DNA of 64,000 nucleotides from Bacteroidales bacterium (GTDB lineage: Bacteria > Bacteroidota > Bacteroidia > Bacteroidales > UBA932), in the NCBI GenBank assembly GCA_024401695.1, contig JAKSKN010000009.1, positions 30,150-94,149 on the forward strand. Direction: 5' to 3'. Numbering within the stretch: position 1 is the stretch's first letter; the number at the start of each line of letters is the position of its first letter. Shown here one piece after another: positions 11,886 through 59,200 of this stretch. Under the pieces are notes generated by a model, which saw only the letters and a list, made by a program, of their open reading frames with translations, had not been told where the DNA came from and searched no databases. A program made the translations under genes and the position numbers.

Positions 11886-11900
11886 ATTATTGATTTTTTG

Positions 11901-11934
11901 CAAAAATATATCGCGACCCTGACAAATTTAGGCA
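11901..11934 (-). promoter_or_regulatory. class 1 promoter, dnaE-like gene
   Basis: On the minus strand TGCCTAAATTTG (11934-11923), 14 bp, then TATTTTTG (11908-11901). It is preceded by ATTC, as at several other sites. Confidence 0.75.
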
Positions 11935-14032: not shown

Positions 14033-14052
14033 TTCAGTCTATTATTATTCTG

Positions 14053-14958: not shown

Positions 14959-14962
14959 AGTG

Positions 14963-30063: not shown

Positions 30064-30081
30064 AGTCTTTCTAATTGATTG

Positions 30082-30115
30082 CAAAATTACCTCATATCTC
30101 TGCCAAAGTCTGGCA
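30082..30115 (-). promoter_or_regulatory. class 1 promoter, WYL 3 operon
   Basis: On the minus strand TGCCAGACTTTG (30115-30104), 14 bp, then TAATTTTG (30089-30082). Confidence 0.75.
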
Positions 30116-30145
30116 CTATGCAAATTTATCAAAATTTTTATGGTT

Positions 30146-30179
30146 TGCCACTCTTTGGCATACTCGCACAATATTTTTG
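30146..30179 (+). promoter_or_regulatory. class 1 promoter, MoxR/VWA operon 1
   Basis: TGCCACTCTTTG (30146-30157), 14 bp, then TATTTTTG (30172-30179). Divergent from the WYL 3 promoter, 31 bp apart. Confidence 0.75.
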
Positions 30180-31296: not shown

Positions 31297-32358
31297 ATGG
31301 CTATCAATATTAACGCAAAAGAACTCCAGAACCTGCTGGAGAGCACACCTGCTTCGCACAACATAATGTTGTCGGGAAGGCACGGTATCGGAAAGTCCAG
31401 GATTCTTACGGACTGGTTCGAAGCAAAAGGTACTAAGGTCGTAACGCTTTTCCTCGGTCAGATGAGCGACCCGGGAGATCTCATCGGTCTTCCGCGCAAG
31501 GATGAAGCGACCGGAAAGACGGTGTTCATGCCACCTTACTGGTTCCCGACTGACGGCAAGCCCGTGGTGCTGTTTCTGGACGAACTCAACCGTGCCCGTC
31601 CGGAGATTCTCCAGACAATAATGGACTTGGCGTTGAATCGCAAGCTTGCCGGAAGGCCGCTTCCGGAGGGAAGCCGTATCATCTCAGCCGTCAATGACGG
31701 AGAGGAGTATCAGCTCAATGAACTTGATCCGGCTCTCGTTTCAAGATTCAACATCTATAATTTCAAGCCTACCGTTGGAGAATGGCTGCTGTGGGCATCA
31801 CAAGCCGGCATCGACAAGAATGTGCTTAACTTCATTGAGAACAATTCTTCAATGTTGGACGGAGACGGGAAGGCCACCAATGACAGTTCCTGCCTTGAGA
31901 AGACTCCTGACCGTCGAGCATGGGAGAGGGTGTCCGACATCGTCAAATCGGCCCCGGCCATCGGCCCGACCACGAAGAAGGTGGTTGCCGGAATTGTCGG
32001 AGCGAAGGCGGCAGCATCATTCTTTGAGAGTTTTTCGCAGAATAGACTCATATCTGCAGAGTCTATCCTGAAAGACTTCATTGCTCAGAAGAAAACGCTT
32101 GAGTCATACAAGGCCCACGACCTTGCAATCATCAATGACAGCATCTACCGTTGCATCGAGAACGGCAAGGGAGGTCCTTACTGCGCAGACAATCTTATGA
32201 AATACATGGACTGGCTCATAACATCAGGGCGGAAGGAGAGCATGGCCCATTTCTGCTCTGTATTTGAGGGTGCCACATATTCTCAGGCGAACCTCTTCAT
32301 GATGAGCGGTGCGCCGAAGTGCTTCAAGACAATCACTGACTTTATCAGTAATCTGTAG
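31297..32358 (+). CDS. MoxR-family AAA+ ATPase, copy 1
   Basis: 353 residues with the MoxR/dynein-related AAA+ motifs: Walker A GRHGIGKS (about residue 27), Walker B VVLFLDELNRA (about 88), sensor 1 around SAVNDG (about 130), and the arginine-containing LVSRF. MoxR proteins act as chaperones that load or activate a partner, typically a VWA protein encoded next door, as here (start 2 bases downstream). A second MoxR copy at 46432-47511 shares long identical blocks (FLGQMSDPGDLIGLP, TIMDLALNRKLAGR). Confidence 0.9.
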   Translation: MAININAKELQNLLESTPASHNIMLSGRHGIGKSRILTDWFEAKGTKVVTLFLGQMSDPGDLIGLPRKDEATGKTVFMPPYWFPTDGKPVVLFLDELNRARPEILQTIMDLALNRKLAGRPLPEGSRIISAVNDGEEYQLNELDPALVSRFNIYNFKPTVGEWLLWASQAGIDKNVLNFIENNSSMLDGDGKATNDSSCLEKTPDRRAWERVSDIVKSAPAIGPTTKKVVAGIVGAKAAASFFESFSQNRLISAESILKDFIAQKKTLESYKAHDLAIINDSIYRCIENGKGGPYCADNLMKYMDWLITSGRKESMAHFCSVFEGATYSQANLFMMSGAPKCFKTITDFISNL

Positions 32359-32360
32359 AG

Positions 32361-33626
32361 ATGGAAGAAATAATCGGAAAAATCGTTGAGGATTGGTTCC
32401 TCAGCGAACCGGCTCTGTTCGCTACATACTGCACGCACACCTTGGAAGAGAACTCCAGGATGAGCGTGCCTATGCGTAGCGGCAAGATGCGCATCGAGTA
32501 CAATCCGGAAATCTTGAAGGAGTGGGCTCCGCAGATGATAGAGGAGAGACTCAAGTTCGAGGTTATCAGAATCCTCCTCGCCCATCCGTATCAGAGACAG
32601 CCGTACAAGGCCACGAAAGCAGCCCTTGGTATGGCCAGTGATGTAACTCTCTCTACTCTCTACAAAAGGCCAACTTCAATCACTATACCTTCCGGACTTA
32701 AATTCGACAGGGGACTGTGCTTCGAAGAATACTACAACATCGTGAAAGCTTACCTTGAGCAGCCTGCCCAGCAGATGCAGTCGCATCAATATGAGATGAA
32801 AGGGCAAGCCCTTGATGGAGGTGGTGGCGCATCGGACGATCCTGCACCAAAGTTGAATGATGATACCCACAGTGAAATTGATGACTCCGATGACATTGAA
32901 TCCCAGATAGCCCGAGAGCAGGCCGAGACTGCTGAACTGTGGGAAGAAGATCAATTGATGCAGGAGGCGGTTAAGGATGTTATCGAAAGGGCGAGACGCA
33001 CTCATCAGTGGGGCTCTCTCTCCGGCCATCTTTCTGATATGATTGAGGCATCAACAATAGTAAGGATAGATTACAGACGAATTCTGTCCTGGTTCAGGGC
33101 GAGCATCCTCTCCTCGAAAAGAAAGCTGACAAGGATGATTCCAAGCCGTCGGTACGGTTTTGAGTATATGGGCAGCAAGAGGGACTTCTGTACCAAGCTC
33201 CTTGTGGCCGTGGATGTCAGCGGCTCAGTGGACAACAAGCAGGTGTCCCAGGCTCTCTCCATAATAAACAGGTTCTTCAAGTATGGCGTCGAAAATGTGG
33301 ATGTAATAATGTTTGACTGCGGTCTTGTCGGCGAGCCGATGTCGATGAAGAAAGCGCCAAGGACACTCAAAATAGGAGGAAGAGGCGGGACGGAATTCCA
33401 AGCACCGATTGACTACTTCGCCAAGGGGCAATATGACGGACTTGTTATGATTACTGACGGCTATGCCGAAGTCCCGACCCTCCCTGAGAATACAAAAGGA
33501 AGGATCCTTTGGATGATTTACAATGACGAGCTGTTCCGGAAGGGCGATTCCCAGACTCTCAATGAGTACTTGACGTGGATTGCCTCGTTCCCTAGATCGA
33601 AATATGTCATTTTACCACCGGTGTAG
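32361..33626 (+). CDS. VWA-domain protein (DUF2201-like), copy 1
   Basis: 421 residues. The N-terminal half holds the helical DUF2201-type region (EYNPEILKEW...IRILLAHPYQRQP), then an acidic linker (about 165-205), then a VWA domain from about 270 with the MIDAS motif DVSGS (AVDVSGSVDNK), the Thr-containing GRGGTEFQ loop and the DG segment (MITDGYAE). It is expected to bind Mg and be remodelled by the adjacent MoxR ATPase. Paralogue at 45242-46423. Its stop precedes a bidirectional terminator. Confidence 0.88.
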   Translation: MEEIIGKIVEDWFLSEPALFATYCTHTLEENSRMSVPMRSGKMRIEYNPEILKEWAPQMIEERLKFEVIRILLAHPYQRQPYKATKAALGMASDVTLSTLYKRPTSITIPSGLKFDRGLCFEEYYNIVKAYLEQPAQQMQSHQYEMKGQALDGGGGASDDPAPKLNDDTHSEIDDSDDIESQIAREQAETAELWEEDQLMQEAVKDVIERARRTHQWGSLSGHLSDMIEASTIVRIDYRRILSWFRASILSSKRKLTRMIPSRRYGFEYMGSKRDFCTKLLVAVDVSGSVDNKQVSQALSIINRFFKYGVENVDVIMFDCGLVGEPMSMKKAPRTLKIGGRGGTEFQAPIDYFAKGQYDGLVMITDGYAEVPTLPENTKGRILWMIYNDELFRKGDSQTLNEYLTWIASFPRSKYVILPPV

Positions 33627-41221: not shown

Positions 41222-41363
41222 TTCTATTGCATATTGATAATCTCTGTGCAAATATTTAATGAGATTCCGCGGATTCTTCAATGATTACAGACTACGACTA
41301 ATTCATCCGTTCGTACAATTGTAAACGCGCCCATAAACTTTTACTACCCATCCAAATTCTCTG

Positions 41364-41394
41364 TAACGATAATTACTTTTCGCGGTACTAATAG
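41364..41394 (+). promoter_or_regulatory. class 2 promoter, clpP copy 2
   Basis: TAACGATAATT (41364-41374), 11 bp, then TACTAATAG (41386-41394). The upstream box keeps TAACGATA but differs at the last bases; the spacing equals that of the other four sites. Confidence 0.65.
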
Positions 41395-41415
41395 AAAAGA
41401 TAATTATCATTCAGT

Positions 41416-42084
41416 ATGACACACGAGTTTGAAAAATTTGCAAGTAGTAATGGAATCAGTCCGATGACGCTCAATCGATACGGCACAACTGCCAATTCCT
41501 ACATCAATCCATCTATTATTGAGGAACGAAGGTTGAATGTTGCTTCAATGGATGTATTCAGCCGCCTGTTGATGGACCGCATTATATTCCTTGGTGTGCC
41601 GATTGACGATGACGTCGCCAATATTATACAGGCGCAGCTGCTGTTCCTGGCATCGAATGATCCAAAAGCGGATATCTCAATGTATATCAACACTGCGGGC
41701 GGCAGTGTTTCCGCCGGACTTGGGATATATGATACAATGCAGCTTGTTTCTCCCGATGTTGCAACGATTTGTACGGGGATGGCTGCCTCCATGGGAAGCG
41801 TCCTCCTCTGTGGCGGAGCAAAAGGAAAACGCTCGGCTCTCCCTCATTCAAGAGTGATGATTCATCAGCCTCTTGGAGGGATATCGGGTCAGGCTTCGGA
41901 TATTCTGATTGAAGCAAAGGAAATTGAAAGGTGTCGCACTGAACTTTTTGGAATCATCTCCGAACACAGCGGCCAGCCAATTGAAAAGATTGCAATTGAT
42001 GCAGACCGGAACTACTGGATGACGTCCGGAGAGGCTGTGGAGTATGGGATGATAGATAGAGTCCTTACCAAGAAAGTCGAGTAA
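41416..42084 (+). CDS. clpP: ClpP-type serine protease subunit, copy 2
   Basis: 222 residues. Catalytic Ser in GMAASMGSVLL, His in HSRVMIHQPLGG, Asp in DADRNYWM. Closely related to copy 1, including the extended N terminus (ISPMTLNRYGTTANSYINPSIIEE). The promoter is class 2 rather than class 1. With the AAA+ gene on its right (convergent) it may form an alternative proteolytic machine. Confidence 0.93.
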   Translation: MTHEFEKFASSNGISPMTLNRYGTTANSYINPSIIEERRLNVASMDVFSRLLMDRIIFLGVPIDDDVANIIQAQLLFLASNDPKADISMYINTAGGSVSAGLGIYDTMQLVSPDVATICTGMAASMGSVLLCGGAKGKRSALPHSRVMIHQPLGGISGQASDILIEAKEIERCRTELFGIISEHSGQPIEKIAIDADRNYWMTSGEAVEYGMIDRVLTKKVE

Positions 42085-42104
42085 CACGCCATTGTGTTAC
42101 TCGA
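42077..42104. terminator. bidirectional hairpin embedding both stop codons
   Basis: TCGAGTAACAC (42077-42087) and GTGTTACTCGA (42094-42104) pair perfectly over a 6-base loop. The left arm contains the TAA of the clpP copy and the right arm overlaps the end of the convergent AAA+ gene, so one hairpin terminates both transcripts. Confidence 0.75.
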
Positions 42105-43836
42105 ATCCAATCGTTTTTCGCCGACTGCTTCTTACAAAGCACTCTTCATTACAATATTTAGCAAGGTCCTCCATCGTAGGTTTCTCACCTTCGATGATGT
42201 AGTTGATTGCGCTCTTTCTCGTAATGTTCTCGATCTGGCCGCCGGAAAATTCATATCTCTGCGCCAGCACTTCGGCATCAGCCTCTGACAGCTCCGGTAG
42301 CATGCTTTGCCAGATCTTTTGCCTTGCACAGGCATCAGGCATATCGAAGTGGACCTTCATCAGGAAGCGCCTCTCAAACGCAGGATCCAGATTGGTTTCG
42401 AGATTTGTTGTTGCTATGAGTACACCGGATATAGTCTCCATTTCTTGAAGGATGATGTTCTGAATGGCGTTGTTCATCTTGTCCACGCCTTGTTCTGCAT
42501 TCTCCATTCTCCTGCCGAAGATGGCATCGGCCTCATTGAAAAGCAGGATTGGAGCTTTCTCGGAATGACGGACCAGATCACGGTAATAGAGGAACAGGCC
42601 GCGAACCTGCTTCTCGCTATTCCCGACATACTTGTCCTTCAGTTTCGCAACATCAACCATAAGGATGTCACGGCACGTCTGACGTGCCAGCTGGAGGCAG
42701 CTTTCAGTCTTGCCTGTGCCGGGAGCCCCATAGAAGATAAGGTTTATGCCATCCCTGAGTCCCTGTTCCTTCATCCTTTTCTGCACGTGCCTTAAATTGC
42801 TCTCATCGAGCATCTTTGTTATCCGCCGCATCTGCTCCTTCTCCGCCGGATTATATACCAGTTCTTTCCTTGAGATGGAGGTGAAACTTTTCAGGTCAGG
42901 GGATCTGGGGACCTCTTCCTCACGAATATCAAATTCGGTAAAGAAATCTTTCCGAATATCTTCACATAGGCATACCTGCTCCTCATTTACGAAACCTCCA
43001 TCAGAGGAAAACTCTATCAGGTCGTATTCCTGGAGAGGTGTATGCTCCCTTGCAAAGTCCCGTTCATGCTTCTTGTGGTCACACGACTCATCGAGAAGCA
43101 TCAGAAGGCGTTCAATGTCAATATTTACCTGTCCGTGACTTACATACCTGTGACACAGGTACATAAATATATTGAAGTAGTCATCATCCTTCACTGCCTC
43201 GTGGACAGCCATTGCTTTCCTGCAGAAGAGTATCTGCTGGTTCTTCCCGATGATGTCTGTCATTTCTTCAGTCAGACGTTCTGTCGTGAGGGCATCATCA
43301 AAATATTCGGAAAACAGAATCCTGAGCTGCGAGAACACTTCATCTGCGGTGAGCCCTTCAAGACTTGGAGCGGAGTATTCCCGGTCATTTCTAATTGCTT
43401 CCATTGCATCGTTGTAAATCATATAGAAGTCGCCGCGACGCTTGGTATTTCTGACGATACGTACAATGTGCATTGAAGACATTTCCTCTATGTCGCGGGT
43501 GAAATTCATGAGTTCAAGGTTAGTGATTCCCATAGACTGGGTAATATCATCGCTGTCTGCCGAACCACCTGACGGACCTGCTTCTTCTGCTATTACGGCA
43601 AGAAGTATGGACTGGATAGGAGTTAGGGACAGTTTCTTTCCGATATATGCCGTCTCTTTTTCCATCCTGTCCATCACATCTTTGCAGAAGTTGTATTCTC
43701 TCAGCATCTTGATAATGTTGTTCATACAGGCTATGGTACTCTCCTGACCAGACAGTTCATTGAGCTTAGCCCTCGATTTTGCACGCCTCTTCTTCTCTAC
43801 GGAAAATTCTTCGATTGAATCCAGATTATGTCTCAT
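42097..43836 (-). CDS. AAA+ ATPase, copy 2
   Basis: 579 residues with the same layout as the copy at 2696-4408: helical N-terminal half, Walker A GAPGTGKT (about 373), Walker B ILLFNEAD (Asn for Asp), sensor 1 ATTN and FERRFLMKVHF. The pore-loop region KDKYVGNSEKQ is closer to the usual YVG than the copy 1 CWVG. It ends in FVRSSRRKTIGFE. Last gene of the operon beginning at 44606, under class 2 control. Confidence 0.85.
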   Translation of the reverse strand: MRHNLDSIEEFSVEKKRRAKSRAKLNELSGQESTIACMNNIIKMLREYNFCKDVMDRMEKETAYIGKKLSLTPIQSILLAVIAEEAGPSGGSADSDDITQSMGITNLELMNFTRDIEEMSSMHIVRIVRNTKRRGDFYMIYNDAMEAIRNDREYSAPSLEGLTADEVFSQLRILFSEYFDDALTTERLTEEMTDIIGKNQQILFCRKAMAVHEAVKDDDYFNIFMYLCHRYVSHGQVNIDIERLLMLLDESCDHKKHERDFAREHTPLQEYDLIEFSSDGGFVNEEQVCLCEDIRKDFFTEFDIREEEVPRSPDLKSFTSISRKELVYNPAEKEQMRRITKMLDESNLRHVQKRMKEQGLRDGINLIFYGAPGTGKTESCLQLARQTCRDILMVDVAKLKDKYVGNSEKQVRGLFLYYRDLVRHSEKAPILLFNEADAIFGRRMENAEQGVDKMNNAIQNIILQEMETISGVLIATTNLETNLDPAFERRFLMKVHFDMPDACARQKIWQSMLPELSEADAEVLAQRYEFSGGQIENITRKSAINYIIEGEKPTMEDLAKYCNEECFVRSSRRKTIGFE

Positions 43837-43839
43837 GCG

Positions 43840-44322
43840 TTATTTCTTGAAGGATGGGAACTCAGATACACATTTACGATAAAGTTCACCGTACACTTCT
43901 TCCTTATCGGAAGGATAAGAGCAGTTTATCTCATAGAACAGCGGATCGACTCCATAGTATGCAATCACTTTATTCATGATGATATTGGTGCCTTCCACAA
44001 AGGTGGTATCCAACACGACGATCGGCCCCTTACCATCATAGAGGCAGTTGGTGGCATATTCTTCCCTAAGGTCTTCCTCGGAGTCACCACAGAGTCTCAT
44101 AAGGTAGCAGTCAGCCCATAGGGTGCTTTCTTCGTTCCCGACACTGAACCCTTTCCCGTTTTGAGCGTGGTCGATTTCTCCAAAAATGGCGGGATAGAGG
44201 GCGCCATACTCATAGTACTTGTTCCAGTGGTACGACAATTCTGAAGCGTGATGCCGACAGGATACTGCGCTGATTGCTGCAATGAGAATCAGGGCTGGGA
44301 TAATGCAGGAATGTTTCATCAT
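43840..44322 (-). CDS. lipoprotein, 160 aa
   Basis: Signal peptide with lipobox (LILIAAISAVSC, Cys at residue 22), then a soluble domain with no known motif. It would be anchored to a membrane facing the periplasm or exterior. Start overlaps the stop of the 95-aa gene; the AAA+ ATPase starts 3 bases after its stop. Confidence 0.75.
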   Translation of the reverse strand: MMKHSCIIPALILIAAISAVSCRHHASELSYHWNKYYEYGALYPAIFGEIDHAQNGKGFSVGNEESTLWADCYLMRLCGDSEEDLREEYATNCLYDGKGPIVVLDTTFVEGTNIIMNKVIAYYGVDPLFYEINCSYPSDKEEVYGELYRKCVSEFPSFKK

Positions 44323-44606
44323 TTTTTCAAAGAGTTCAGGAAGTTCTTTTCACCGGTGCGGATAAGTTCCGAATAGATGCTCTCCGCTGCATCCGAGACA
44401 CTCACGAAGACCTTTTTGCCGTCATTGATGTAAGTGGGAATGGCTTTGTATGTGCCGTTGTGTCTGTCGGTAATCATCCCTGTCCTGCCATCAGAGAATC
44501 TGACGGTATAGAATGTGCCGGTGAAGGGATTGTTTGCAGCCAGGCTGACTGCGTACTTCGGGGTTTTGATTAATCCAAGTCGCCTGAGAATAAATTTTGT
44601 ATTCAT
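44319..44606 (-). CDS. small hypothetical protein, 95 aa
   Basis: Basic N terminus (MNTKFILRRLGLIKTPK), beta-rich centre (FTGTFYTVRFSDGRTG), helical end. First gene behind the class 2 promoter at 44626-44659. No family is recognised. Confidence 0.6.
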   Translation of the reverse strand: MNTKFILRRLGLIKTPKYAVSLAANNPFTGTFYTVRFSDGRTGMITDRHNGTYKAIPTYINDGKKVFVSVSDAAESIYSELIRTGEKNFLNSLKK

Positions 44607-44625
44607 AGCTGTTTCTTTTGATGTT

Positions 44626-44659
44626 CTATTAATAATACTTTGCTGTCCGAATATCGTTA
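44626..44659 (-). promoter_or_regulatory. class 2 promoter, AAA+ copy 2 operon
   Basis: On the minus strand TAACGATATTC (44659-44649), 11 bp, then TATTATTAATAG (44637-44626). Confidence 0.75.
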
Positions 44660-44673
44660 TCAGGCGATTGCTG

Positions 44674-45237
44674 TTATCGTTCCCATTGAATGTAATGTTT
44701 CTCTGAATGCATTATGACTGAATCCCCATATTTGTTTATTGCAATGCAAATGGAGGCAATGTCATTCAACAGTGTGTCCAGAACGCCCGGCTCATGGAGT
44801 TTCTTATAATCCAATCCGAATTCGATGCAGTTTCTTCGTTTCCCCGAGAAAAGCACGGCAACCCACAGACATCCGACTTTCTGATATGTTCTGAACATTA
44901 ATCCTTTCCCGCTAAGGAATCCTCTCACTTTTTCTTCGCCGATATTTCTGACCATTGCTTCCCCGAGGAGCCGTACTCCTTCGTCGTTTGCCTGCTTGTA
45001 GATTGTCGGCCACATAGCATTGATAAGCCAGTCCCGACCGCCCTGATCATCGCATGGTGGAAGGTTGGGGTATTTCTTGCAGAACCGCGGATAGAGCCGG
45101 TTCTCGGTACATGAATTTGCCGAGCAGTGGTCAAAGGCTTGCCTGATGTCTTTGAATAGTTTGACTGCATCCCGAAAAAGGGCGAGGTAATAGCGGACAA
45201 TAGCTTCTTCCGCTGTTGTATTCGATAAGTTGTTCAT
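44674..45237 (-). CDS. hypothetical protein, 187 aa
   Basis: Five or more cysteines in the N-terminal half (HCSANSCTENRLYPRFCKKYP...LPPC), which may bind a metal. The C-terminal half is strand-rich. Third gene of the MoxR/VWA operon 2 (4 bases after the VWA stop), so possibly its third component or target. Confidence 0.65.
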   Translation of the reverse strand: MNNLSNTTAEEAIVRYYLALFRDAVKLFKDIRQAFDHCSANSCTENRLYPRFCKKYPNLPPCDDQGGRDWLINAMWPTIYKQANDEGVRLLGEAMVRNIGEEKVRGFLSGKGLMFRTYQKVGCLWVAVLFSGKRRNCIEFGLDYKKLHEPGVLDTLLNDIASICIAINKYGDSVIMHSEKHYIQWER

Positions 45238-45241
45238 TTTG

Positions 45242-46423
45242 TCAATGTATTTCTATTGTACATACTCTTCCTGATTTCTCCATCCATTGATGGTGCTTCT
45301 CATAACAGTCCTTGTCCTGACACACCCAGATTACCTTGCACCGCATATTGTCCGGGATTACCGGCTCCGGAGCATTTCCATCAGTGAGGACCAGCAGGCC
45401 GTCATATCCGTTCTCATGGGCATAGTTGACCGGTTCCTGGAAGGAAGTCCCTCCTCGTCCGAGCACCGTCACATCACGCATAACCCGCTTGAGGTTCTGG
45501 ACCACGCGCGCACCACAGTCGAACTGGATCACGTCTATCGCTTCAAAGCCATATCGGAAGGCACTGTTGATAACTCCGTAAAAGTAGCTCAGGCTTTCGC
45601 TGGAAACTGAGCCGCTGACATCGACGGCCACAAGGAGCCGGGTGTCGTACTCTCGCTTGCTGCCCATCTGCTCAAAACCGTAGCGACGGCTAGGACGCAT
45701 CCTCGTAAGCTTTCTGCGTGAAGAAAGGATGCTGGCACGGAATCCGCTGAGGACATTGCGCCAGTTGATCTTCGCTTTCGTGGATGCCTTAAGCATTTCA
45801 ACAAAGCCACCTGGCATCGACCCCCAGTTCAGACATCCCTCAATGATACCGTTAATCATCGCAACGGCAAGTTCATCCTCATCCCAGAGCTCGGACAGAG
45901 ACCTGTTCCTGTCGGCATTCCCATTGAGCTTATCCGAGTACTTTCCTTCTTCTTCTCCTTCTTCTCCTTCTTCTCTGCCTTCTCTGCCTTCTCCGTTCCC
46001 GCCAGCACCTCCCTCGCCGGGAGGCAGCATCTCCTGAATTTTTCTGGAGTACCACTCATATGGCATTCCGCTCTTGAGCTCATAGTCCTCCGGCCTTTCA
46101 ATCTGGAAATTGCCGTAATGGTAGTTGTCTCCTATTGTGATATTGCTGCCTATGGCGACTGCCTGATCGCAGCATTGGTCGGGCTTTCTCTCGTAAGGGT
46201 GCTTGAGAAGGAGTCTGATGCCTTCCGTTTTGAGAGCTTCTTCTAATCCTTCGTCTGTCATTTGTGAAAGGAAATCGGGATTGTACTCGACTCTGCGTCG
46301 GCCACAACGTACCGGACACGCCATCCTTGTGTTCTCTGCAAGTTTGTGGGTGCAGAGAACACTGAATATGGGTGGTTCGCTGATAAAGAAGCGCTCAAAT
46401 ATTCTTGTAATACGTTCCTTCAT
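45242..46423 (-). CDS. VWA-domain protein (DUF2201-like), copy 2
   Basis: 393 residues. N-terminal helical domain shared with copy 1 (EYNPDFLSQ..., IRLLLKHPYERKP), a Gly/Glu-rich linker (GEGGAGGNGEGREGREEGEE, about 133-153), then the VWA domain with MIDAS AVDVSGS, GRGGTSFQ and LTDGNAPEP. Partner of the MoxR ATPase immediately upstream (9-base gap). It ends before the 187-aa gene. Confidence 0.88.
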   Translation of the reverse strand: MKERITRIFERFFISEPPIFSVLCTHKLAENTRMACPVRCGRRRVEYNPDFLSQMTDEGLEEALKTEGIRLLLKHPYERKPDQCCDQAVAIGSNITIGDNYHYGNFQIERPEDYELKSGMPYEWYSRKIQEMLPPGEGGAGGNGEGREGREEGEEGEEEGKYSDKLNGNADRNRSLSELWDEDELAVAMINGIIEGCLNWGSMPGGFVEMLKASTKAKINWRNVLSGFRASILSSRRKLTRMRPSRRYGFEQMGSKREYDTRLLVAVDVSGSVSSESLSYFYGVINSAFRYGFEAIDVIQFDCGARVVQNLKRVMRDVTVLGRGGTSFQEPVNYAHENGYDGLLVLTDGNAPEPVIPDNMRCKVIWVCQDKDCYEKHHQWMEKSGRVCTIEIH

Positions 46424-46431
46424 AATTCAAG

Positions 46432-47511
46432 CTATTTTATGCCTTTTACATATATTACGAGGCTCATAGTAAGAACTCGGCAATCTCTTGCGAAAAAGCT
46501 GACGGCATTCGGGTATGTCTTTGAGACGTACAAGTTGGCGAAGTGTGCGGCAGCTTCCTTCTTGCTCTTGGCGAGGTAGTCGAAATAAGCCTCAGCATTT
46601 TTTGCAACCTTGGCCTTGTCGGCCTCAGGAACCTTCTCGACTTCCAGAAAACGGTAGATTCCGTCATTGACCACTGACAGCTCGTGAATCTGGTAGGAGT
46701 CCAGAACAGTCCTTTTCTCATTGAAATTGTACAGAATATCTCTGCCGGAGAGAATTTTGTGGGCTGACACGCTTGAGAGGAATGCGCTTGCTGCCTTGGC
46801 TCCGACGATGGAACTGATTGCCTTGGAATACACACCTGAAAGTGTGTGGGCATTCTTAATGATGTCGGAAACCCGTTTCCACGCACGACGGTCAGGAGTC
46901 TTGTCAAGACCGGTATCTGCGCCTTCCTTCGCATCGGGAGTCTTGTCGAGCCAGATGTTGTCCTCCTGGATGAACTCTATAACACGGTGGTCAAGTCCTG
47001 TCTTCTTTGCCCAAAGCAACCACTCCTGCGGTGTTGGTGCGAAGGTTACAATGTTGAATCGTGAAACCAACGCCGGGTCAAGGTCAGTCAACTGATACTG
47101 GTCACCTTCATTGACGGCCGCGATGATACGGCTGCCTTCGGGAAGTATACGACCGGCAAGCTTGCGGTTCAGGGCAAGGTCCATGATTGTTTGAAGGATC
47201 TCCGGACGGGCACGGTTAAGCTCGTCAAGGAACAAGCAGATGGGCTTGCCGTCGATAGGAAACCAGTATGGCGGCATAAAGTCGGTTTTTCCGGTGCTTT
47301 CGTCCTTGTTAGGGAGGCCTATAAGGTCTCCCGGATCACTCATCTGGCCGAGGAAAAGGGCTACAACCCTCATGTCCTTTGACTTGTAGTATTCCGTGAG
47401 GATTTCGCTCTTGCCGATTCCGTGATTGCCGACAAGCATAATGTTGTGCTTGGCAGGCATAATGTCAAGCACTTGTATAAGTTCTGTGATATTACATCTG
47501 ATATTGCTCAT
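46432..47511 (-). CDS. MoxR-family AAA+ ATPase, copy 2
   Basis: 359 residues with Walker A GNHGIGKS, Walker B ICLFLDELNRA, sensor 1 AAVNEGDQY and LVSRFNIV, as in copy 1. Copy 2 carries an extra ~20-residue insertion with a repeated motif (LDKTPDA...LDKTPDR) around 190-210. First gene of MoxR/VWA operon 2, behind the class 2 promoter at 47546-47579. Confidence 0.9.
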   Translation of the reverse strand: MSNIRCNITELIQVLDIMPAKHNIMLVGNHGIGKSEILTEYYKSKDMRVVALFLGQMSDPGDLIGLPNKDESTGKTDFMPPYWFPIDGKPICLFLDELNRARPEILQTIMDLALNRKLAGRILPEGSRIIAAVNEGDQYQLTDLDPALVSRFNIVTFAPTPQEWLLWAKKTGLDHRVIEFIQEDNIWLDKTPDAKEGADTGLDKTPDRRAWKRVSDIIKNAHTLSGVYSKAISSIVGAKAASAFLSSVSAHKILSGRDILYNFNEKRTVLDSYQIHELSVVNDGIYRFLEVEKVPEADKAKVAKNAEAYFDYLAKSKKEAAAHFANLYVSKTYPNAVSFFARDCRVLTMSLVIYVKGIK

Positions 47512-47545
47512 AACTTCATAATTATATTGATTGATTATTTGATTT

Positions 47546-47579
47546 CTAATAATAATATTTGCTGATGCGGATATCGTTA
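47546..47579 (-). promoter_or_regulatory. class 2 promoter, MoxR/VWA operon 2
   Basis: On the minus strand TAACGATATCC (47579-47569), 11 bp, then TATTATTATTAG (47557-47546). The upstream box touches the end of the preceding gene. Confidence 0.75.
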
Positions 47580-48359
47580 CCTCATGATGTATTTCGTTAT
47601 AGTACTGAACCCCAAACCATCCTCAGCGATTCTGTCCGGGCGCTTGAGCAGGTAGGGGATGATTCCAAGAATCCGGTCGACGTTTTCAAGATTTACAGTG
47701 TTGTTGACCATCCAGAATTTACCCGTCATCTGCACTTCCAGAACAGTCTTTCCCTCGTTGTCAATAAGAAGATGATAATTGCTGATACTCTTCTTCTGCA
47801 TGAAGTCTTTGACTTTTTGCTCAATGATAGGCATCTGGATTTCGCTCAACAAATTCTGCTGCCGGAGGCCGTTTTCTGCAGAGGCAATGACTTTATGGCA
47901 CAAGTCAAGGAAATGGTCGAACATTTCAAGCAGGTCGGCAATGTCTTCTTCTGATGCCGTAACGTGTTCCTTTGAACGGGTGGCTCCATATACGACATCC
48001 GCTCCTCTGTACTTGACACTTTCAAGAGTGAGGAAAAGGCCTTTGCCGTTCTGTCTTTCGATAATCGTGCAACAGTTGCTCAGCTTTACCGATACCGATT
48101 CATTTTTGCAGTCCGGGATTGAATGGTAGTCTACTCCACGATTATGAAGTATCTGAGCCAGGGTGTCGAGTTGTTTTCTTCTTCGAACACCTGCCTTTGT
48201 GTTTATTAATCTAATGAAGGTTCCGAAACGACTCTGGATAAAGGTTCGGAAATCATAAGTGTTGTTTTTATCAAGTAAGCCGCCGTTATGAGAGAGCGAT
48301 GCAAATGGGATTGCAGATGATTCTGCCATTTCTGATAATTTGGTCTCTGAATATTTCAT
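47577..48359 (-). CDS. hypothetical protein, 260 aa
   Basis: Soluble, with helical and basic regions (KAGVRRRKQLDTLAQIL) and a polar C terminus. No motif. The first ATG (48359) lies about 6 bases from the class 2 -10 box, which would make the mRNA nearly leaderless; an ATG 11 codons later (48326) is an alternative. Immediately divergent from the sigma factor gene. Confidence 0.65.
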   Translation of the reverse strand: MKYSETKLSEMAESSAIPFASLSHNGGLLDKNNTYDFRTFIQSRFGTFIRLINTKAGVRRRKQLDTLAQILHNRGVDYHSIPDCKNESVSVKLSNCCTIIERQNGKGLFLTLESVKYRGADVVYGATRSKEHVTASEEDIADLLEMFDHFLDLCHKVIASAENGLRQQNLLSEIQMPIIEQKVKDFMQKKSISNYHLLIDNEGKTVLEVQMTGKFWMVNNTVNLENVDRILGIIPYLLKRPDRIAEDGLGFSTITKYIMR

Positions 48360-48360
48360 A

Positions 48361-48391
48361 CCAGTAATACAACCCTTTTCGAATATCGTTA
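48361..48391 (-). promoter_or_regulatory. class 2 promoter, 260-aa protein gene
   Basis: On the minus strand TAACGATATTC (48391-48381), 11 bp, then TATTACTGG (48369-48361). Confidence 0.7.
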
Positions 48392-48402
48392 CATAAAATA
48401 AA

Positions 48403-48434
48403 TTTTACGGTACGGAAAACATTTGATACTTTTG
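48403..48434 (+). promoter_or_regulatory. canonical promoter of the sigma factor gene
   Basis: TTTA (48403-48406, near TTTG), 20 bp, TACTTTTG (48427-48434). This is an ordinary Bacteroidota promoter without the class 1 or class 2 boxes. It is divergent from a class 2 promoter. Confidence 0.6.
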
Positions 48435-48468
48435 AAGCAAACAATAATCCCCTTTTATTTTTAGACAC

Positions 48469-49350
48469 ATGCGTACTGATTTCCAAAAGAGCAGCTTGGA
48501 AGAAGCTATTTTCAAAAAAGATTATGGGCAACTTATCAGACATGCCAAGCATATTGTAATAAGTAGTTGCAGAATTCCCGATTCTGATTTGACGGGAGTG
48601 TCTCAGGAAGATTTTATCAATGACGTTGCATATCGGGGAATACAATATGCAATGACGGACTATGAAAATGGATTGTTTGATAGAAGACGTGGAACTATTG
48701 AGACTTTTGTGTGGGGTAGAGTATGTAAGAAAGCGTTCTACGAGGTCCTTAAAGAATTTACTTCATACCTCGGAATGGCTCGTTTTGACGAACGCCTTGG
48801 GAAATACTACGAAGGTTCTGCCGGCCATGAAACCACATTCGACGATGAGCAGGATGATGCAGTTCCTGCAAAGACTGATTTATTAGAACATTATTACTAT
48901 AGCGCAGAAAAAGAACAAATTCTTGAAGATGTCAGGGATGCCAAAATGGAGTATATCAATACAATAAAAAACCTTGTTTCAAAGATGAGTCCGATGGATC
49001 AGCGCTTGTTTGACATACGTTTTGGATTCAACCTTTCAGAAGAAGACTACCAGAAAATAGATGAGATTCAGAAGACTCCGCACGTCAAGGAATACTATAA
49101 TAAATTGGCTGCTGAGGAGTTTGGCATAAGCGAAGGAGCAGCGCGCAAGCGTGTCAATGATTTGTTGGTATATATCAAGAAAAATCTTACTGCAAACGGG
49201 ACGATGGCCTCTTACAGGCAGAACACTTCACTTCCCGGACTTTCCGAATTCAAAGTTACCCAACCTGAAACGGACTTTCCTGATTTTAATCTGAACAATC
49301 TGTCCGAGTACGACTGCATTGATATCCTGATTGGACTGAAATTTCAATAA
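48469..49350 (+). CDS. sigma-70-family RNA polymerase sigma factor
   Basis: 293 residues. A region 2-like block spans about 20-110 (LIRHAKHIVIS, EDFINDVAYRGIQYAM, TIETFVWGRVCKKAFYEVLKE). The region 4-like HTH lies around 215-245 (KLAAEEFGISEGAARKRVNDLLVYIKK) after a helix beginning MSPMDQRLFDIRFG. The spacing is longer than in minimal ECF factors, with a poorly conserved linker and a C-terminal tail of about 50 residues. Centred in the cluster of class 2 promoters, it is the best candidate to read them. Transcribed from an ordinary promoter. Confidence 0.7.
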   Translation: MRTDFQKSSLEEAIFKKDYGQLIRHAKHIVISSCRIPDSDLTGVSQEDFINDVAYRGIQYAMTDYENGLFDRRRGTIETFVWGRVCKKAFYEVLKEFTSYLGMARFDERLGKYYEGSAGHETTFDDEQDDAVPAKTDLLEHYYYSAEKEQILEDVRDAKMEYINTIKNLVSKMSPMDQRLFDIRFGFNLSEEDYQKIDEIQKTPHVKEYYNKLAAEEFGISEGAARKRVNDLLVYIKKNLTANGTMASYRQNTSLPGLSEFKVTQPETDFPDFNLNNLSEYDCIDILIGLKFQ

Positions 49351-49364
49351 GCGAAGATTGGCAG

Positions 49365-49399
49365 TAACGATATTCAATCATTGACGTATTATATACTAG
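49365..49399 (+). promoter_or_regulatory. class 2 promoter, 271-aa protein gene
   Basis: TAACGATATTC (49365-49375), 11 bp, then TATTATATACTAG (49387-49399). Confidence 0.75.
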
Positions 49400-49462: not shown

Positions 49463-50278
49463 ATGGCAAAAAAGATTTATCCTTCTTATCCTTCTGTTTT
49501 CTATGGAATGTGGGAACAATTTATCAATGATTGGTACAACGGAAAATCTGTTGCGCCGTGGTCGGATCCTAATTTAACACCTCTTATTAACAACCCTAAG
49601 ACGAAATCTCTTTCTATTGATTATATCCCTGAGCCGTGGTGGGGCAACCATGAGGAAGATGTGCCACTTCATAGTGTTGTTGTTAATTTTAACCCTGGCC
49701 AAGGCGACGTTTTTCAGCATCGTTCGCGCATCCCTTTCCATGGTTGTTATGCTCACAATATTGTTGATAGTAAGGTTCTTCCGTTAACAGAAAAATGGCA
49801 TGCTTCATTACGGGCAAAGCCCATCCATTCTGCTCTATCAATTATTAATCCTACTGGCTGGAAGAACTTATCTCTGAAGAACCATCTCAGTGTCGAACTG
49901 ATTCCTTGGCACACCCGTGCTATTGCTGGCTGTGGCTTTGACAATTATCTGAAGCAAAATGCGATACAAATAATGGAATGCTCATTAATGTTCGCGGCTA
50001 ATGAATCAAAAAGGATTGCAAACGATAAACTACGGAACGTTGTTATTCTAAAAATGTCAAAAGGGAACACGGATAAATTGTTGAATGTGCTTGACAGTGC
50101 GGGGTATAACTATGTCCCATATTCCGTAAAGACCGTACCTGGAACAAGCTCTCATTGTTATGAGTTTTCTATTGAACACATTCCTTCAGTTAGATTCGTC
50201 AGTATTTGGGGAGAACATGCCATGAACAAATTCCCCAACAAAAGTGATTTGAAATACATCCTTGATAAATTTATCTAG
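49463..50278 (+). CDS. hypothetical protein, 271 aa
   Basis: Starts at ATG 49463 (MAKKIYPSYP); the TTG at 49430 is less likely. SVVVNFNPGQGD (about 80) recalls the N-terminal loop of uracil-DNA-glycosylase-like folds, but the rest is not diagnostic. The codon use is visibly more A+T rich than the neighbours. Driven by a class 2 promoter. Confidence 0.6.
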   Translation: MAKKIYPSYPSVFYGMWEQFINDWYNGKSVAPWSDPNLTPLINNPKTKSLSIDYIPEPWWGNHEEDVPLHSVVVNFNPGQGDVFQHRSRIPFHGCYAHNIVDSKVLPLTEKWHASLRAKPIHSALSIINPTGWKNLSLKNHLSVELIPWHTRAIAGCGFDNYLKQNAIQIMECSLMFAANESKRIANDKLRNVVILKMSKGNTDKLLNVLDSAGYNYVPYSVKTVPGTSSHCYEFSIEHIPSVRFVSIWGEHAMNKFPNKSDLKYILDKFI

Positions 50279-50292: not shown

Positions 50293-51858
50293 ATGGCAGA
50301 TAGGCACACAATAGAAGCAGAAATAACAACAAGAGTTGATAAACTTCTTAAACTGGTCGAAGTTGAATCCGGTCGCGATGACGGGTATGATCCTAATGAT
50401 TTGATTTCCGATGTATTGGACGTGTTCAATGACAATGCCACTCCGTTCGGAATAAAAAACAAGGCCTTGATATTATTAATGGATATCCTTAAATATGAGG
50501 CCAGTGATTCGTGGGTAGATTCCTGTTTTTTGGAAAAATCGCCCATAGAAGTCCAAAAGACATTGTTTACTGTTCTTTACGATGAAATGATTAAACTCTG
50601 CTTCGGCTGGACACCTGAGAACATCGAATTCAGCGATTTAGCTCACGACCATGTAAAGGAAGTTCTTGACTGTTTGAAAGACAAGTCATTATTGGGTGAT
50701 ATCCGTGGTAAAATATTATCAGCCGCAATCGATTATGAATGGAAGGATGTCATTAATATGATTTTAGAGGATGACACTAAGGCTTGGCCAGATGGAACTT
50801 TAGATATAATCACAGTCTGCGCAATAAAGAAAGAATGGAATGAAATCATTGTAACAATTATTAACGATGACAAATTCTCTTTTTTGAAAGAAGGTACGAT
50901 ATATTGTCTGTTCGATTATTTTTACACAGATGTCAATCGGTTCCATAGCGAGTTGAACTCTCTTTATAATCGTGTGGAAATAAACCTTTCATCCTCTTTC
51001 TCCGGGATAATTTGTCGGGATGAAGAACGGTTTTTGAAAGATTTGAGTAATGCCCATATTGCTGGATTACCTTTCTTGATTTCCTATTATCCTTTCCCGG
51101 GCTTTCTGCTCGCCTTGCACTCGTCACCTGCAGTCGTTTCGGAAGTCTTGGTTCATCAAAGACAGTGGATTCAAATGAGGGCCTCGCAAATTTCAGGGGA
51201 GCCTGTTAATGGCAACGTCAGTTGGTGGAGTATATACAATGGGTTGCTTTCGGACAATCGTGGACTAATTACTGATGTCGACAGTTCTCTTATCGGTATC
51301 TGCAATTCGATTCTTGAAAAGTCTGGATTTAATGGGGTAGGGTTGCCTCTGATTGTTTTCAAAGATGAAGAGAAGGCGTTGTCGCGAGATGAAAATTGGT
51401 TTAACGTCCTAGGTGAATATATCGCAGAAAAACAGGAAGTCATATTGTATGGACACGCAATCGCGAAGGCTTCTCTTGAATTGGATGTTGATGAAAATAT
51501 TCTTCGCGCTGTTGTGCTGATTCATGAACTCGGCCACTATATCACTCATGCTCATCCTCTCAAGAACATCGCTGAAGAACCGTTTGACAATGTTTTGTTT
51601 TCACGCTCAGACCCTGATTTTCTGGAATGTATTGCGCAGCTGGTTGCTTATTGGGTAACGGAGCGAGACGGACAGCACAATTCACATGATGTGTTTAATA
51701 AACTTGCCAGCAAGCAGAGCGGGCCATATAAGGTGTATCTCAAATATTTGAAAGAGTCACCAAAAATAATTCTCCAATCAATTGCAGTATTAAGAGCAAA
51801 TGACAAAGTGACCACGATATCTGATTTCGACATGGTTATCAATAAATTAAAGAACTGA
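50293..51858 (+). CDS. large protein with HExxH zinc-protease motif, 521 aa
   Basis: Helical, repeat-like N-terminal 300 residues with no known motif. The C-terminal part contains HELGHYITHAHP (about 413-424), a classic HExxH zinc-binding motif, followed 35 residues later by FLECIAQL, where Glu could be the third ligand. Likely a zincin-type metallopeptidase. A+T-rich codon usage. It is the second of a plus-strand series behind the class 2 promoter at 49365. Confidence 0.7.
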   Translation: MADRHTIEAEITTRVDKLLKLVEVESGRDDGYDPNDLISDVLDVFNDNATPFGIKNKALILLMDILKYEASDSWVDSCFLEKSPIEVQKTLFTVLYDEMIKLCFGWTPENIEFSDLAHDHVKEVLDCLKDKSLLGDIRGKILSAAIDYEWKDVINMILEDDTKAWPDGTLDIITVCAIKKEWNEIIVTIINDDKFSFLKEGTIYCLFDYFYTDVNRFHSELNSLYNRVEINLSSSFSGIICRDEERFLKDLSNAHIAGLPFLISYYPFPGFLLALHSSPAVVSEVLVHQRQWIQMRASQISGEPVNGNVSWWSIYNGLLSDNRGLITDVDSSLIGICNSILEKSGFNGVGLPLIVFKDEEKALSRDENWFNVLGEYIAEKQEVILYGHAIAKASLELDVDENILRAVVLIHELGHYITHAHPLKNIAEEPFDNVLFSRSDPDFLECIAQLVAYWVTERDGQHNSHDVFNKLASKQSGPYKVYLKYLKESPKIILQSIAVLRANDKVTTISDFDMVINKLKN

Positions 51859-55391: not shown

Positions 55392-55441
55392 TTTTCTTGA
55401 TAATCCATTCGTTGGGAGCAATTTATGCCTATATTTGTGTT

Positions 55442-56407
55442 ATGATTGAGGTGTTTGAACAATATCTAAAAAGTGTTGATGCCAAGGAGTCCACAAAGGC
55501 AACCTACGGCAAAGCCTTGGATTGCTTCTCAAAGTGGCTTGAGGGTAGGGGAACCTCTATATACGAACTAAGAAGAGAGAATCTCCTGGAATATAAGTCA
55601 TTCCTTGTAGACAGCAACAAATCTACCCTTACCATCAACTTATATCTGTCGACGATACGAGGGTTCTTCAAATGGGCGGACGGCGAATCCATCTGTCCTA
55701 ATATCGCCAACGGGGTGGGTTCGCTTCGCACCAACAAGAATACCTTCCGCCGTATGCATCTTGAGAATGAACAAGGAGCCCAGCTTCTGACGGATGCTTA
55801 TCTTCCGAAAAGGGTATCAGGAGTGAATGCAGGAGTAACGAGAAAACTCAACTCCAACGAAGAGCTTATTGCCCTTCGGGACTTTGCTATGCTTAACCTG
55901 ATGCTTAGGACCGGGCTCAGAACAATTGAAGTGTCCAGAGCTGACATAAAAGATATTACGAAGAAGAAAGGCAGAAGAATACTCAAGGTATGGGGAAAGG
56001 GGCACTCTGAAAAGGATGATTTTGTCGTGCTTACCGATGAAGCGTACCTGCCTATCAAGGAGTTCCTTTCAGAAAGGAAGGATGCAAAGCCGGAGGATCC
56101 GCTTTTTTGCGGTGCGGGATTCGGTCATTCGGGGAAGAGGATGTCTACAAGAACAATCCAGGACATCTGCAAGAAACACCTGAGGGCTATCGGGCTTGAT
56201 GGCCATGAATATTCCGCCCATTCGCTCAGACATACTACCGGCACTCAGATTCTCCTTAATGGAGGTAATATGTTCGATGTTCAGAATGTCCTACGGCATG
56301 CGTCACCTGCGACATCTCAGATTTATGTCAACACTATTATGGAGGACAAGAGGCTTGATGATGCCAGCGAGGAACTGCTTGATACTTCATTCAAAAACAA
56401 TCAGTGA
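55442..56407 (+). CDS. tyrosine recombinase/integrase
   Basis: 321 residues from ATG 55442 (MIEVFEQYLKSV). N-terminal SAM-like core-binding domain, catalytic domain with Arg in MLRTGLRTIEVSR, a Lys region (KVWGKGHSEKDD), HSLRHTTGT, and C-terminal HASPATSQIYVN carrying His and the nucleophile Tyr. The size matches XerC/D-type or element integrases. A -7 box TATATTTG lies just upstream. It probably integrates or resolves the element. Confidence 0.93.
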   Translation: MIEVFEQYLKSVDAKESTKATYGKALDCFSKWLEGRGTSIYELRRENLLEYKSFLVDSNKSTLTINLYLSTIRGFFKWADGESICPNIANGVGSLRTNKNTFRRMHLENEQGAQLLTDAYLPKRVSGVNAGVTRKLNSNEELIALRDFAMLNLMLRTGLRTIEVSRADIKDITKKKGRRILKVWGKGHSEKDDFVVLTDEAYLPIKEFLSERKDAKPEDPLFCGAGFGHSGKRMSTRTIQDICKKHLRAIGLDGHEYSAHSLRHTTGTQILLNGGNMFDVQNVLRHASPATSQIYVNTIMEDKRLDDASEELLDTSFKNNQ

Positions 56408-56450: not shown

Positions 56451-58613
56451 ATGAAACAGAAGCTTTTTACCAAATCCGCATTCAAGCAGGCTATAACCTG
56501 CCAGACCGGCCTGTATTATTACTACAGGAGCGATATCTACGCAAATCAGAACAACGAGGACGATTTCCTGCAGTCTCTTGCTGAAGGCGGCTTCCAAGTA
56601 GGAGAGCTGGCGAAGGTATATTACGGCATCGACGCTTCCCACGACATAGAAGAACTGAGTTACGACAGGGCTCTCGAAAGGACGGCCGTACTCTTCAGAG
56701 AGGATAAGGTGAACATCGCCGAAGCTGCGTTCCGCTGGGAGAACTGCTTTATCCGTACGGATATTCTCGTCAAGGAGGGACACGATATAAAGCTCATCGA
56801 GGTAAAGGCAAAGTCCTGGAATGAGGCCGAGGACAGTTTTGTCACAAAGGGTGATTCGAACTGCGTAGCGGGCCCCATCCTGGAATATGTCTATGATGTC
56901 GCTTTCCAGAAATATGTGCTTGAGAACGCTCTAAAAGTCCTTTATCCCGGAGAAAACTACAACGTGCACGCATATTTGATGATGGCGGACAAGCTGACAG
57001 TATCGGACGTTGACGGAATCAACCAGAAGTTTATAATCAAGGCTGACAGCCGCGGGCGCAAGCGCGCCGTCAGGGCGGAAGGAGCTGAAAGTCTCAGTGC
57101 TGCCAAACACGTCCTCACCCCATATGACGTGGACGAACTCTGCGATAGGATTATCAACGGACAGACCACCGAGCAGTCGGCCCTTCTTCTTGGTACATTT
57201 AAAGATTTCGTGAAGAACTCAGCGGAGGCTTACTGCAATCAGGACAGGTTGTGGACACCGCTTGGGGCCAAGTGCTTCAAATGCCCTTTCCGTACTACGG
57301 AAATGGACGATCCGTCAATGCAGGACGGATACCGTGAATGCTGGTGCCATCAGGCTGGATTCAAGCCGGAGGACTTTGACATACCTCACGTAAAGGATCT
57401 CTGGGGCGCGTTCATCAAACGCGGGGACTTTGTCGATCAGGGCAAGTACTTCCTTTCAGACCTTAAAGATGGAGACATCAAGGACGCCAAGACATCAAAA
57501 CCGGGCCTCAGCCATAGCGAGCGCAAATGGCTCCAGATAGGAATGTGGACGGGAAATCAGGAAATACTCAAGCGTTTCGCCGGGAACATCAAAGGAAATG
57601 CCTATCTTGACAGGGATGAACTGAGACAGCGGATGGAGAGTTGGACGTTCCCTCTTCATATGATTGACTTTGAGACCTCTGCCGTTGCCCTTCCTTTCTA
57701 CAAGGGAATGCATCCGTACGAACAAGTCGCCTTCCAATTCTCTCATCATATCATCAGAAGAAAGCCGGACGGGAAATATTCGATCGAGCATGCCGGGCAG
57801 TACATCAACGTCGAGAAAGGACATTTCCCCAACTTCGACTTCGTTCGTGAGCTCAAGCGTCAGTTGGAGAAGGACAACGGCACGATATTCCGCTATGCCG
57901 CTCACGAGAATACCATCCTTCGCTGCATACACGACCAGCTTGCAGAGAGCAGCGAGCCTGACCGTCAGGAACTGATGGACTGGATAGATACAATCACCAC
58001 ATATAAGGAGGGTGGGCATAAGATATCCGGGCCCCGCAATATGGAGGATCTTCTGGAGGTCGTGAAGAGTTTCTACTACCACAAGTCAATGAAGGGGAGC
58101 AATTCCATCAAGGTTGTGCTCCCGGCTGTGCTGAACTCATCCAAGTTCATTCAGGACAAGTACTCCAAAGCAATATATGGATCGGAGATTAAGAGCTGCA
58201 CCTATACTCCCGAGGAGGCCATCGCCTGGATCACATACGAGGCGGATGGAAAGACCGTGCAGAATCCTTACAAGCATCTCCCTCCAGTCGGCAATTACAT
58301 AGAGGTGGACGACAGCCTGATAGACTATGACTGTGAAGACGAGGATATGACAGTTGCAAACGGAGGTGCGGCCCTGACGGCATACTCAAAACTCCAGTTC
58401 AGCGACATTGTCGCCACAGAAGCCCTTTCCAAGGCCCTGCTCAGATACTGTGAGCTTGACACGATGTCGATGGTCTTCATTTGGGAATATTTCTATCACG
58501 AACTTTATACCGATTTTCCAGAGGTAACACCTATGGAAAACCCTGAAGAGTATCTAAGAAATAATGGAGCAATAACCCTTGAAGAGTTTATTGCAAGAGT
58601 TGGGAATTCGTAG
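56451..58613 (+). CDS. DUF2779-like nuclease (PD-(D/E)XK plus RNase H-like)
   Basis: 720 residues. The N-terminal half has a PD-(D/E)XK-type core (DIKLIEVKAKSW, about residues 105-120). A Cys cluster follows, CNQDRLWTPLGAKCFKCPFR and a later CWC, resembling the Cas4/RecB iron-sulphur module. The C-terminal half has an exonuclease-like DFETSAVALPF (about 405), and a DTITTY/ELDTMSM region fitting an RNase H-like fold. Such proteins are DNA-end processing nucleases of unknown biology. It is downstream of the integrase. Confidence 0.8.
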   Translation: MKQKLFTKSAFKQAITCQTGLYYYYRSDIYANQNNEDDFLQSLAEGGFQVGELAKVYYGIDASHDIEELSYDRALERTAVLFREDKVNIAEAAFRWENCFIRTDILVKEGHDIKLIEVKAKSWNEAEDSFVTKGDSNCVAGPILEYVYDVAFQKYVLENALKVLYPGENYNVHAYLMMADKLTVSDVDGINQKFIIKADSRGRKRAVRAEGAESLSAAKHVLTPYDVDELCDRIINGQTTEQSALLLGTFKDFVKNSAEAYCNQDRLWTPLGAKCFKCPFRTTEMDDPSMQDGYRECWCHQAGFKPEDFDIPHVKDLWGAFIKRGDFVDQGKYFLSDLKDGDIKDAKTSKPGLSHSERKWLQIGMWTGNQEILKRFAGNIKGNAYLDRDELRQRMESWTFPLHMIDFETSAVALPFYKGMHPYEQVAFQFSHHIIRRKPDGKYSIEHAGQYINVEKGHFPNFDFVRELKRQLEKDNGTIFRYAAHENTILRCIHDQLAESSEPDRQELMDWIDTITTYKEGGHKISGPRNMEDLLEVVKSFYYHKSMKGSNSIKVVLPAVLNSSKFIQDKYSKAIYGSEIKSCTYTPEEAIAWITYEADGKTVQNPYKHLPPVGNYIEVDDSLIDYDCEDEDMTVANGGAALTAYSKLQFSDIVATEALSKALLRYCELDTMSMVFIWEYFYHELYTDFPEVTPMENPEEYLRNNGAITLEEFIARVGNS

Positions 58614-59198: not shown

Positions 59199-59200
59199 AT

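Follow-up and report, generated by a model that had tools for sequence, protein, structure and literature searches.

The window analysed here is a stretch of 64,000 nucleotides (bases 30150-94149 of a 94,149-base contig) from the 2.65 Mb draft genome of a Bacteroidales bacterium. It holds, within 8 kb, a gene for a 293-residue sigma-like protein (48469..49350, plus strand) and five sites of a two-part, promoter-like motif. Site 1 (41363..41390, plus, with the -10 box TACTA) lies upstream of a clpP-like gene, site 2 (44633..44660, minus) upstream of a gene run from 44606 to 42097, and site 3 (47553..47580, minus) upstream of a MoxR-VWA gene run. Site 4 (48365..48392, minus) is divergent from the sigma gene, and site 5 (49364..49391, plus) is found directly after it, upstream of a Brig1-like gene. 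We interpret the gene at 48469 as encoding a divergent sigma factor of the extracytoplasmic function (ECF) type that drives this local regulon, with a probability of roughly 0.86.

No sigma match for the 293-residue protein is found in Pfam, PHROGs or NCBIfam. Two of its relatives match Sigma70_r4_2 below threshold (E 0.013 and 0.034), and a third gives no match. The assignment comes from comparison of the family profile with the ECF sigmas of the own genome, from the alignment and from the structural model with its fold matches. An hhalign comparison of five homologues with nine own-genome ECF sigmas gives a probability of 93.6 and P 2.1e-7. Without realignment, family positions 49-246 are aligned to ECF positions 32-163 with a score of 52.5; 100 column shuffles reach 20.5 at most. 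Homology over regions 2 and 4, by which ECF membership is judged, is found in this comparison, the confident part after realignment being region 4 only. Structural matches of the sigma model agree with the sigma identity, none of them being as good as E 0.001, and a sequence search of solved structures gave nothing of weight (best with a 4-row profile, FliA, E 0.036). The first-pass annotation had called the gene sigma-like, and profile comparison with the genome's ECF factors bears this out for a remote member of the sigma-70 family.

In the 293-residue protein, region 2 spans about residues 9-98 and region 4 about 150-242. They are joined by a linker with the conserved stretch FDERLGKYYEG, and a conserved C-terminal extension of about 50 residues follows region 4 in the alignment. 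The protein is like the ECF (group 4) factors of the sigma-70 family in its regions 2 and 4 (profile match and model) and in the AAC of the -35 box. It is unlike the usual members in being too diverged for Pfam, in its long linker with a conserved stretch of its own and in its conserved extension. It also differs in that no anti-sigma neighbour was recognised, the scanned neighbours of the sigma gene giving no match to an anti-sigma family, and in that all targets found at the stringency used adjoin the sigma gene. A class I anti-sigma neighbour accompanies only 6% of Bacteroidetes ECFs (PMC7406223). With ECF41 and ECF42, whose C-terminal extensions appear in a title cited in PMC7406223, the likeness is that of having a conserved, possibly regulatory extension after region 4. 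No description of the motif or of the sigma family was found in the literature searched.

The motif had been given in the first-pass annotation as TAACGATATNC-N11-TATTA, with five starts. All five are present where they had been placed, four of them exact (44659-, 47579-, 48391- and 49365+), whereas the one at 41364+ is off at three places. The earlier box proved slightly misplaced: the sites of relatives give GTAACGATA-N14-TANTA, of which 41363+ is then an ordinary member. At 44660- an A replaces the first G. In the window, 8 matches to TAACGATATNC-N11-TATTA with at most three mismatches are found, against a mean of 1.14 and a largest value of 4 in 100 shuffles, and perfect copies occur exactly four times in the whole genome, all in the cluster. 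With at most one mismatch to GTAACGATA-N14-TATTA the window gives 5 matches, whereas 120 letter-permuted versions average 0.04 and never exceed 1. The other gaps from 8 to 20 give no window match, except three at gap 17 and one at gap 20; we explain those at gap 17 by the repeated TATTATTATTA. Over the 2.65 Mb genome the same search gives 5 matches, 5/5 in the cluster, and 1 for the reversed-pattern control. A chance origin of the site cluster is thus ruled out by shuffles, permuted motifs, genome-wide counts and the reversed-pattern control. Had the motif been found equally near unrelated host genes, the annotation would have been contradicted; the opposite is seen, the genome matches being confined to the cluster. 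A sixth window site, 21492+, is visible only at two mismatches and is without the TANTA box. It was removed from 28 collected sites before the logo was made, which leaves 27 sites from nine genomes.

The motif looks like a promoter. Taking TATTA as the -10 box, transcription is expected to start at the position 12 nt past its first T, and a purine stands there in 27/27 sites. An ATG that opens a reading frame of at least 60 codons is found 27-35 nt past the same T in 21 of the 27. Neither feature was used in site selection, and several of the sites are orthologous, so that they do not count as 27 independent cases. An extra G precedes GTAACGATA in 23/27 and a G precedes the -10 box in 25/27, and the bases between GTAACGATA and TANTA vary widely. 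The E. coli sigma-E promoter reads GAACTT-N16-TCTGA, with the same distance from AAC to the -10 box as in the window motif. A -35 box containing AAC is frequent with ECF factors (PMC8791391). Within the same phylum, motif SM6 of alternative-sigma promoters in Flavobacterium psychrophilum is likewise ascribed to ECF factors, but its -10 region contains a CGT box, and the genes listed for it include secretion-system components (PMC9723704).

The sigma gene itself had been assigned an ordinary promoter, and upstream of it a housekeeping-type TAnnTTTG box is indeed present (TACTTTTG, 48427..48434, plus). This is the primary-sigma box of Bacteroidetes according to PMC9723704 and PMC7366714. The box is found upstream of 5/5 close sigma homologues, namely those of the own genome and of the relatives G003, G057 and G912, and the cut one of G294. 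It is also found upstream of the doubtful sigma-like protein F18 of G335, and not of the G404 fragment nor of the distant G363 homologue. As background, 2.9% of 110-base stretches taken at random from the window contain it. None of the five motif-led genes has such a box within 110 bases upstream, which is weak evidence since only 4/23 checked upstream regions have one, that of the sigma gene included.

The relatives were searched in 400 genomes of the genus, with a sigma profile and with GTAACGATA-N14-TANTA. The profile matches 5/400 genomes: full-length in the own genome, G003 and G057, distant in G363, and cut in G294, where the similarity ends after region 2. The motif gives 33 matches in 20/400 genomes, and its reversed control 18 in 16/400, with three of these in one genome, G438. 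Two or more matches on one contig are seen in five of the 400, namely all three genomes with a full-length sigma, G179 (on a 7.4 kb contig) and G335. All three full-length homologues adjoin a motif cluster. Counting gives 9e-7 for this co-occurrence and 8e-5 without the own genome (post hoc), which shows linkage, because the loci are related. At up to one mismatch, 6/6 matches in G057 and 2/3 in G003 lie beside the sigma gene, and seven genomes together have 24 motif matches against 6 of the reversed pattern. Outside motif loci lie 13 of the 33 matches, 11 of them inside open reading frames (ORFs) of 467-974 residues; for the remaining two (G183, G134), no ORF of 60 residues opening with ATG lies within 80 bases. 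Among the 20 motif-locus matches, 18 were checked for overlap, and four of these overlap an ORF of at least 100 residues, antisense to the site.

In the taxonomic family, a four-sequence search matched 2/199 genomes, the own one and G912, which belongs to another genus and was picked by the protein alone. The 2.2 Mb of G912 hold a single match at up to one mismatch; it is exact and lies on the sigma contig, 9 kb from the sigma gene. In addition, a near-motif (TAATA, gap 13) stands divergent from the G912 sigma gene, before a small gene. The first-pass annotation had suggested looking in relatives for sigma gene and motif together, and they do co-occur, both in same-genus genomes and in G912. 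The window, G003, G294 and G912 each have a motif site divergent from the sigma gene, and G335 and G404 one divergent from F18 or its fragment; G057 has no such site, its nearest being 1.1 kb off. Across the order the sigma occurs in 1/393 genomes, the own one. A search of genome contigs gave no match with the single protein and two with the profile, both known loci (G057, G003). A phage or plasmid origin of the sigma was not borne out: viral contigs (searched with the single protein and a 3-row profile), phages and plasmids gave no relatives. For the motif extended by TT, 29 viral stretches each gave a single match.

The motif-led genes of the window are of several kinds. Target 1 is a ClpP-family protease (41416..42084, plus; Pfam CLP_protease, 1.2e-75). 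Target 2 begins with a 95-residue protein (44319..44606, minus), whose start codon stands 31 nt after the -10 box and which has no Pfam family above cut-off. A 160-residue protein follows (43840..44322, minus), with a lipoprotein-like signal seen by eye and no Pfam family, and then an AAA+ ATPase (42097..43836, minus; Pfam AAA, 1.3e-20; PADLOC IetA, 6.8e-31; NCBIfam IteA, 96 bits against a cut-off of 510). The AAA+ gene and the clpP-like gene end 12 bp apart. That the two converge tail to tail, with one motif site leading each, fits an ATPase-protease pair. The ATPase at 42097-43836 is IetA-like, but its neighbouring protease is ClpP-type, while IetS is a subtilisin-type protease, so the pair is not classed as IetAS. 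Target 3 consists of a MoxR-type AAA ATPase (46432..47511, minus; Pfam AAA_5, 1.5e-9; phrog_1297, 4.4e-51), a VWA protein (45242..46423, minus; Pfam DUF2201, 2.6e-12; phrog_1314, 1.1e-31) and a 187-residue protein (44674..45237, minus) with no Pfam or PHROGs family. An adjacent MoxR ATPase and VWA protein are also the mark of RavA-ViaA; the window pair differs in standing behind a shared motif.

Target 4 is a protein without assigned function (47577..48359, minus). Counted from the first T of the -10 box, the first ATG of its ORF comes 10 nt later; since this precedes the predicted start site, translation probably begins at a later ATG. Target 5 is a distant relative of the anti-phage DNA glycosylase Brig1 (49463..50278, plus, the ORF being listed from 49430; NCBIfam antiviral_Brig1, 1.1e-7, 31.6 bits against a cut-off of 230). 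Brig1 itself removes a modified base from the DNA of phage T4 (PMC11078745). The next gene (50293..51858, plus), probably on the same transcript, codes for a 521-residue protein with a HELGH metallopeptidase-like stretch seen by eye and no family in the scans.

The cargo was compared between loci through gene sets made of the longest non-overlapping ORFs, a procedure that hides some true genes; the MoxR gene of G003 was added by hand. We call the loci islands as a working name. Among the ORFs compared, only the sigma and a DUF2779 protein are common to all four sigma loci. The latter lies at 56451-58613 in the window, and a motif site is upstream of its relatives in G057 and G335. Relatives of the MoxR, VWA and AAA+ proteins are common to the window and G003, where the copies are without the motif at two mismatches. 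In G057 and G912, leucine-rich-repeat proteins and members of unknown families are among the products of the driven genes. That the promoter code is kept while most driven genes differ points to the one shared transcription protein as the reader of the motif. Signs of mobility in the window are a phage-type integrase gene (55397-56407) and an ArdC-like gene (22173-23315).

The proposed mechanism would run as follows. The sigma factor would be made from its housekeeping-type TAnnTTTG promoter and, most likely, held inactive until a signal arrives. Once active, it would bring host RNA polymerase to the five GTAACGATA-N14-TANTA promoters, which would drive the clpP-like gene, the AAA+ run, the MoxR-VWA run, the target 4 gene and the Brig1-like run. 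In related loci, sigma and promoter code are retained and most driven genes differ. That the window protein reads the window motif we infer strongly, and the cluster very probably brings its own private on-switch. As no anti-sigma neighbour was recognised, the factor would be controlled after its synthesis, perhaps through the conserved C-terminal extension, which is the first candidate for this role. By eye, the upstream boxes of the two divergent promoters in the window are about a dozen bases apart. At such closeness, polymerase bound at one promoter may interfere with the other, which could amount to negative feedback.

Several observations weigh against a sigma factor that reads the motif. 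The motif occurs in G335, G179, G025, G398 and G404, where no sigma homologue was detected. In G335, four sites lie on one contig, and the place of the sigma, before ART-like and NADAR genes, is taken by F18 (L097:2629-3897, 422 residues), which is only weakly sigma-like. F18 scores 28.8 against the ECF profile, with at most 21.4 in 100 shuffles, and 28.6 against the 5-row family, with shuffles reaching 28.0. Its hhalign comparison with the 3-row sigma family had no success, its model is useless (predicted local distance difference test 36), and it occurs in 1/320 genomes, G335 itself. Furthermore, only 2/5 start codons of the window fall inside the 27-35 nt range. These loci would be accommodated if the motif were an operator for another DNA-binding regulator, with the housekeeping sigma transcribing and the sigma-like gene a bystander, and DUF2779 is the one family besides the sigma that recurs in all four sigma loci. 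We consider this unlikely: no evidence of a DNA-binding role for DUF2779 was found, and the motif lacks symmetry and consists of two parts separated by a single gap length, with a fixed distance to the purine and mostly to the start codon. The TAnnTTTG box, at hand for the sigma gene and missing at the motif-led genes, argues weakly in the same direction. Still less credible is a reading of the motif by an ordinary host ECF sigma, the locus sigma having other targets or being dead. The own genome does have nine ordinary ECF-type sigma genes besides one primary-type, but a host factor without any site outside one cluster would be odd, and the motif accompanies the locus sigma into other genomes and another genus.

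The ECF-type sigma with its private motif is therefore preferred, and the remaining alternative concerns its cargo, which may serve conflict with phages or other elements, to judge by family resemblance. With the sigma-motif unit unchanged, the cargo could instead be a protein quality-control or envelope-stress module, a serious contender that we place somewhat short of an even chance. The targets include ClpP, an AAA+ ATPase and the MoxR-VWA pair, as well as the lipoprotein-like and metallopeptidase-like proteins noted by eye. On the other side stand hints at function: the likeness of the AAA+ protein to IetA, the weak one of target 5 to Brig1 and an ART-like/NADAR pair 9 kb off, all conflict-linked by name. 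The cargo of relatives is also largely different. More tentatively still, and on balance doubtfully, Bacteroidales islands may use a private sigma and promoter code as a plug for exchangeable conflict genes that is switched on by infection or DNA damage, any cargo that gains the promoter joining the response. The proposed plug cargo is the IetA-like ATPase with ClpP, the MoxR-VWA pair and the Brig1-like protein here; elsewhere it would be leucine-rich-repeat proteins whose tails are SSB-like.

For the most part, the genes served by known alternative sigma factors are either scattered over the chromosome or the late genes of a phage. Here one locus seems to bring both a sigma factor and a conserved promoter code while the cargo changes. 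If confirmed, the motif would directly point out which genes of uncultured Bacteroidales are co-regulated, many of them without known function, and the locus would offer a compact, possibly orthogonal sigma-promoter pair.

Some further observations were made on the loci. The ART/NADAR pair of the window (58620-59800, 9 kb from the cluster) consists of an ART-PolyVal-like gene, recognised below threshold, beside a NADAR gene. Homologues adjoin the sigma gene or a motif site in G057, G335 and G398 and are found within the G003 locus. In G057 the sigma gene and the ART-like and NADAR genes run in one direction and either abut or overlap. ART-NADAR pairs are described as toxin-antitoxin units in PMC11125620.

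Of 304 ORFs examined, 8 have C-termini of the form [DE][LMIV]PF; these come from motif loci of relatives, the window contributing none (L014:10250-11005, L059:18081-19028, L029:233-1312, L057:1019-1522, 6159-6692 and 10180-11235, L100:6668-7411 and 14017-15060). Five of the eight belong to the leucine-rich-repeat cluster F00, and the one at 14017-15060 of G912 is 48% identical to one of these. The best-scoring single-stranded DNA-binding protein (SSB) ends in DDLPF in 4/4 genomes, and for this reason the tails look like mimics of the SSB tail.

A second MoxR-VWA pair, without the motif, lies at 31297-33626 in the window; its VWA protein is 40% identical to the G003 homologue. A second AAA+ gene, also without the motif, is at 2696-4408. 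In G003, an ordinary ECF-like sigma ORF (L065:6066-6599, minus, E 3e-11) stands directly upstream of the AAA+ relative. Of the window genes at 9381-11903, 16550-17650 and 6960-8423, two are DNA polymerase III alpha-like and separate from each other, and the third codes for a PIF1-like helicase. Of those at 5946-6890, 14053-14958 and 29149-30171, two are WYL-type regulators (Pfam), and the third resembles a protein of G363 from the same cluster.

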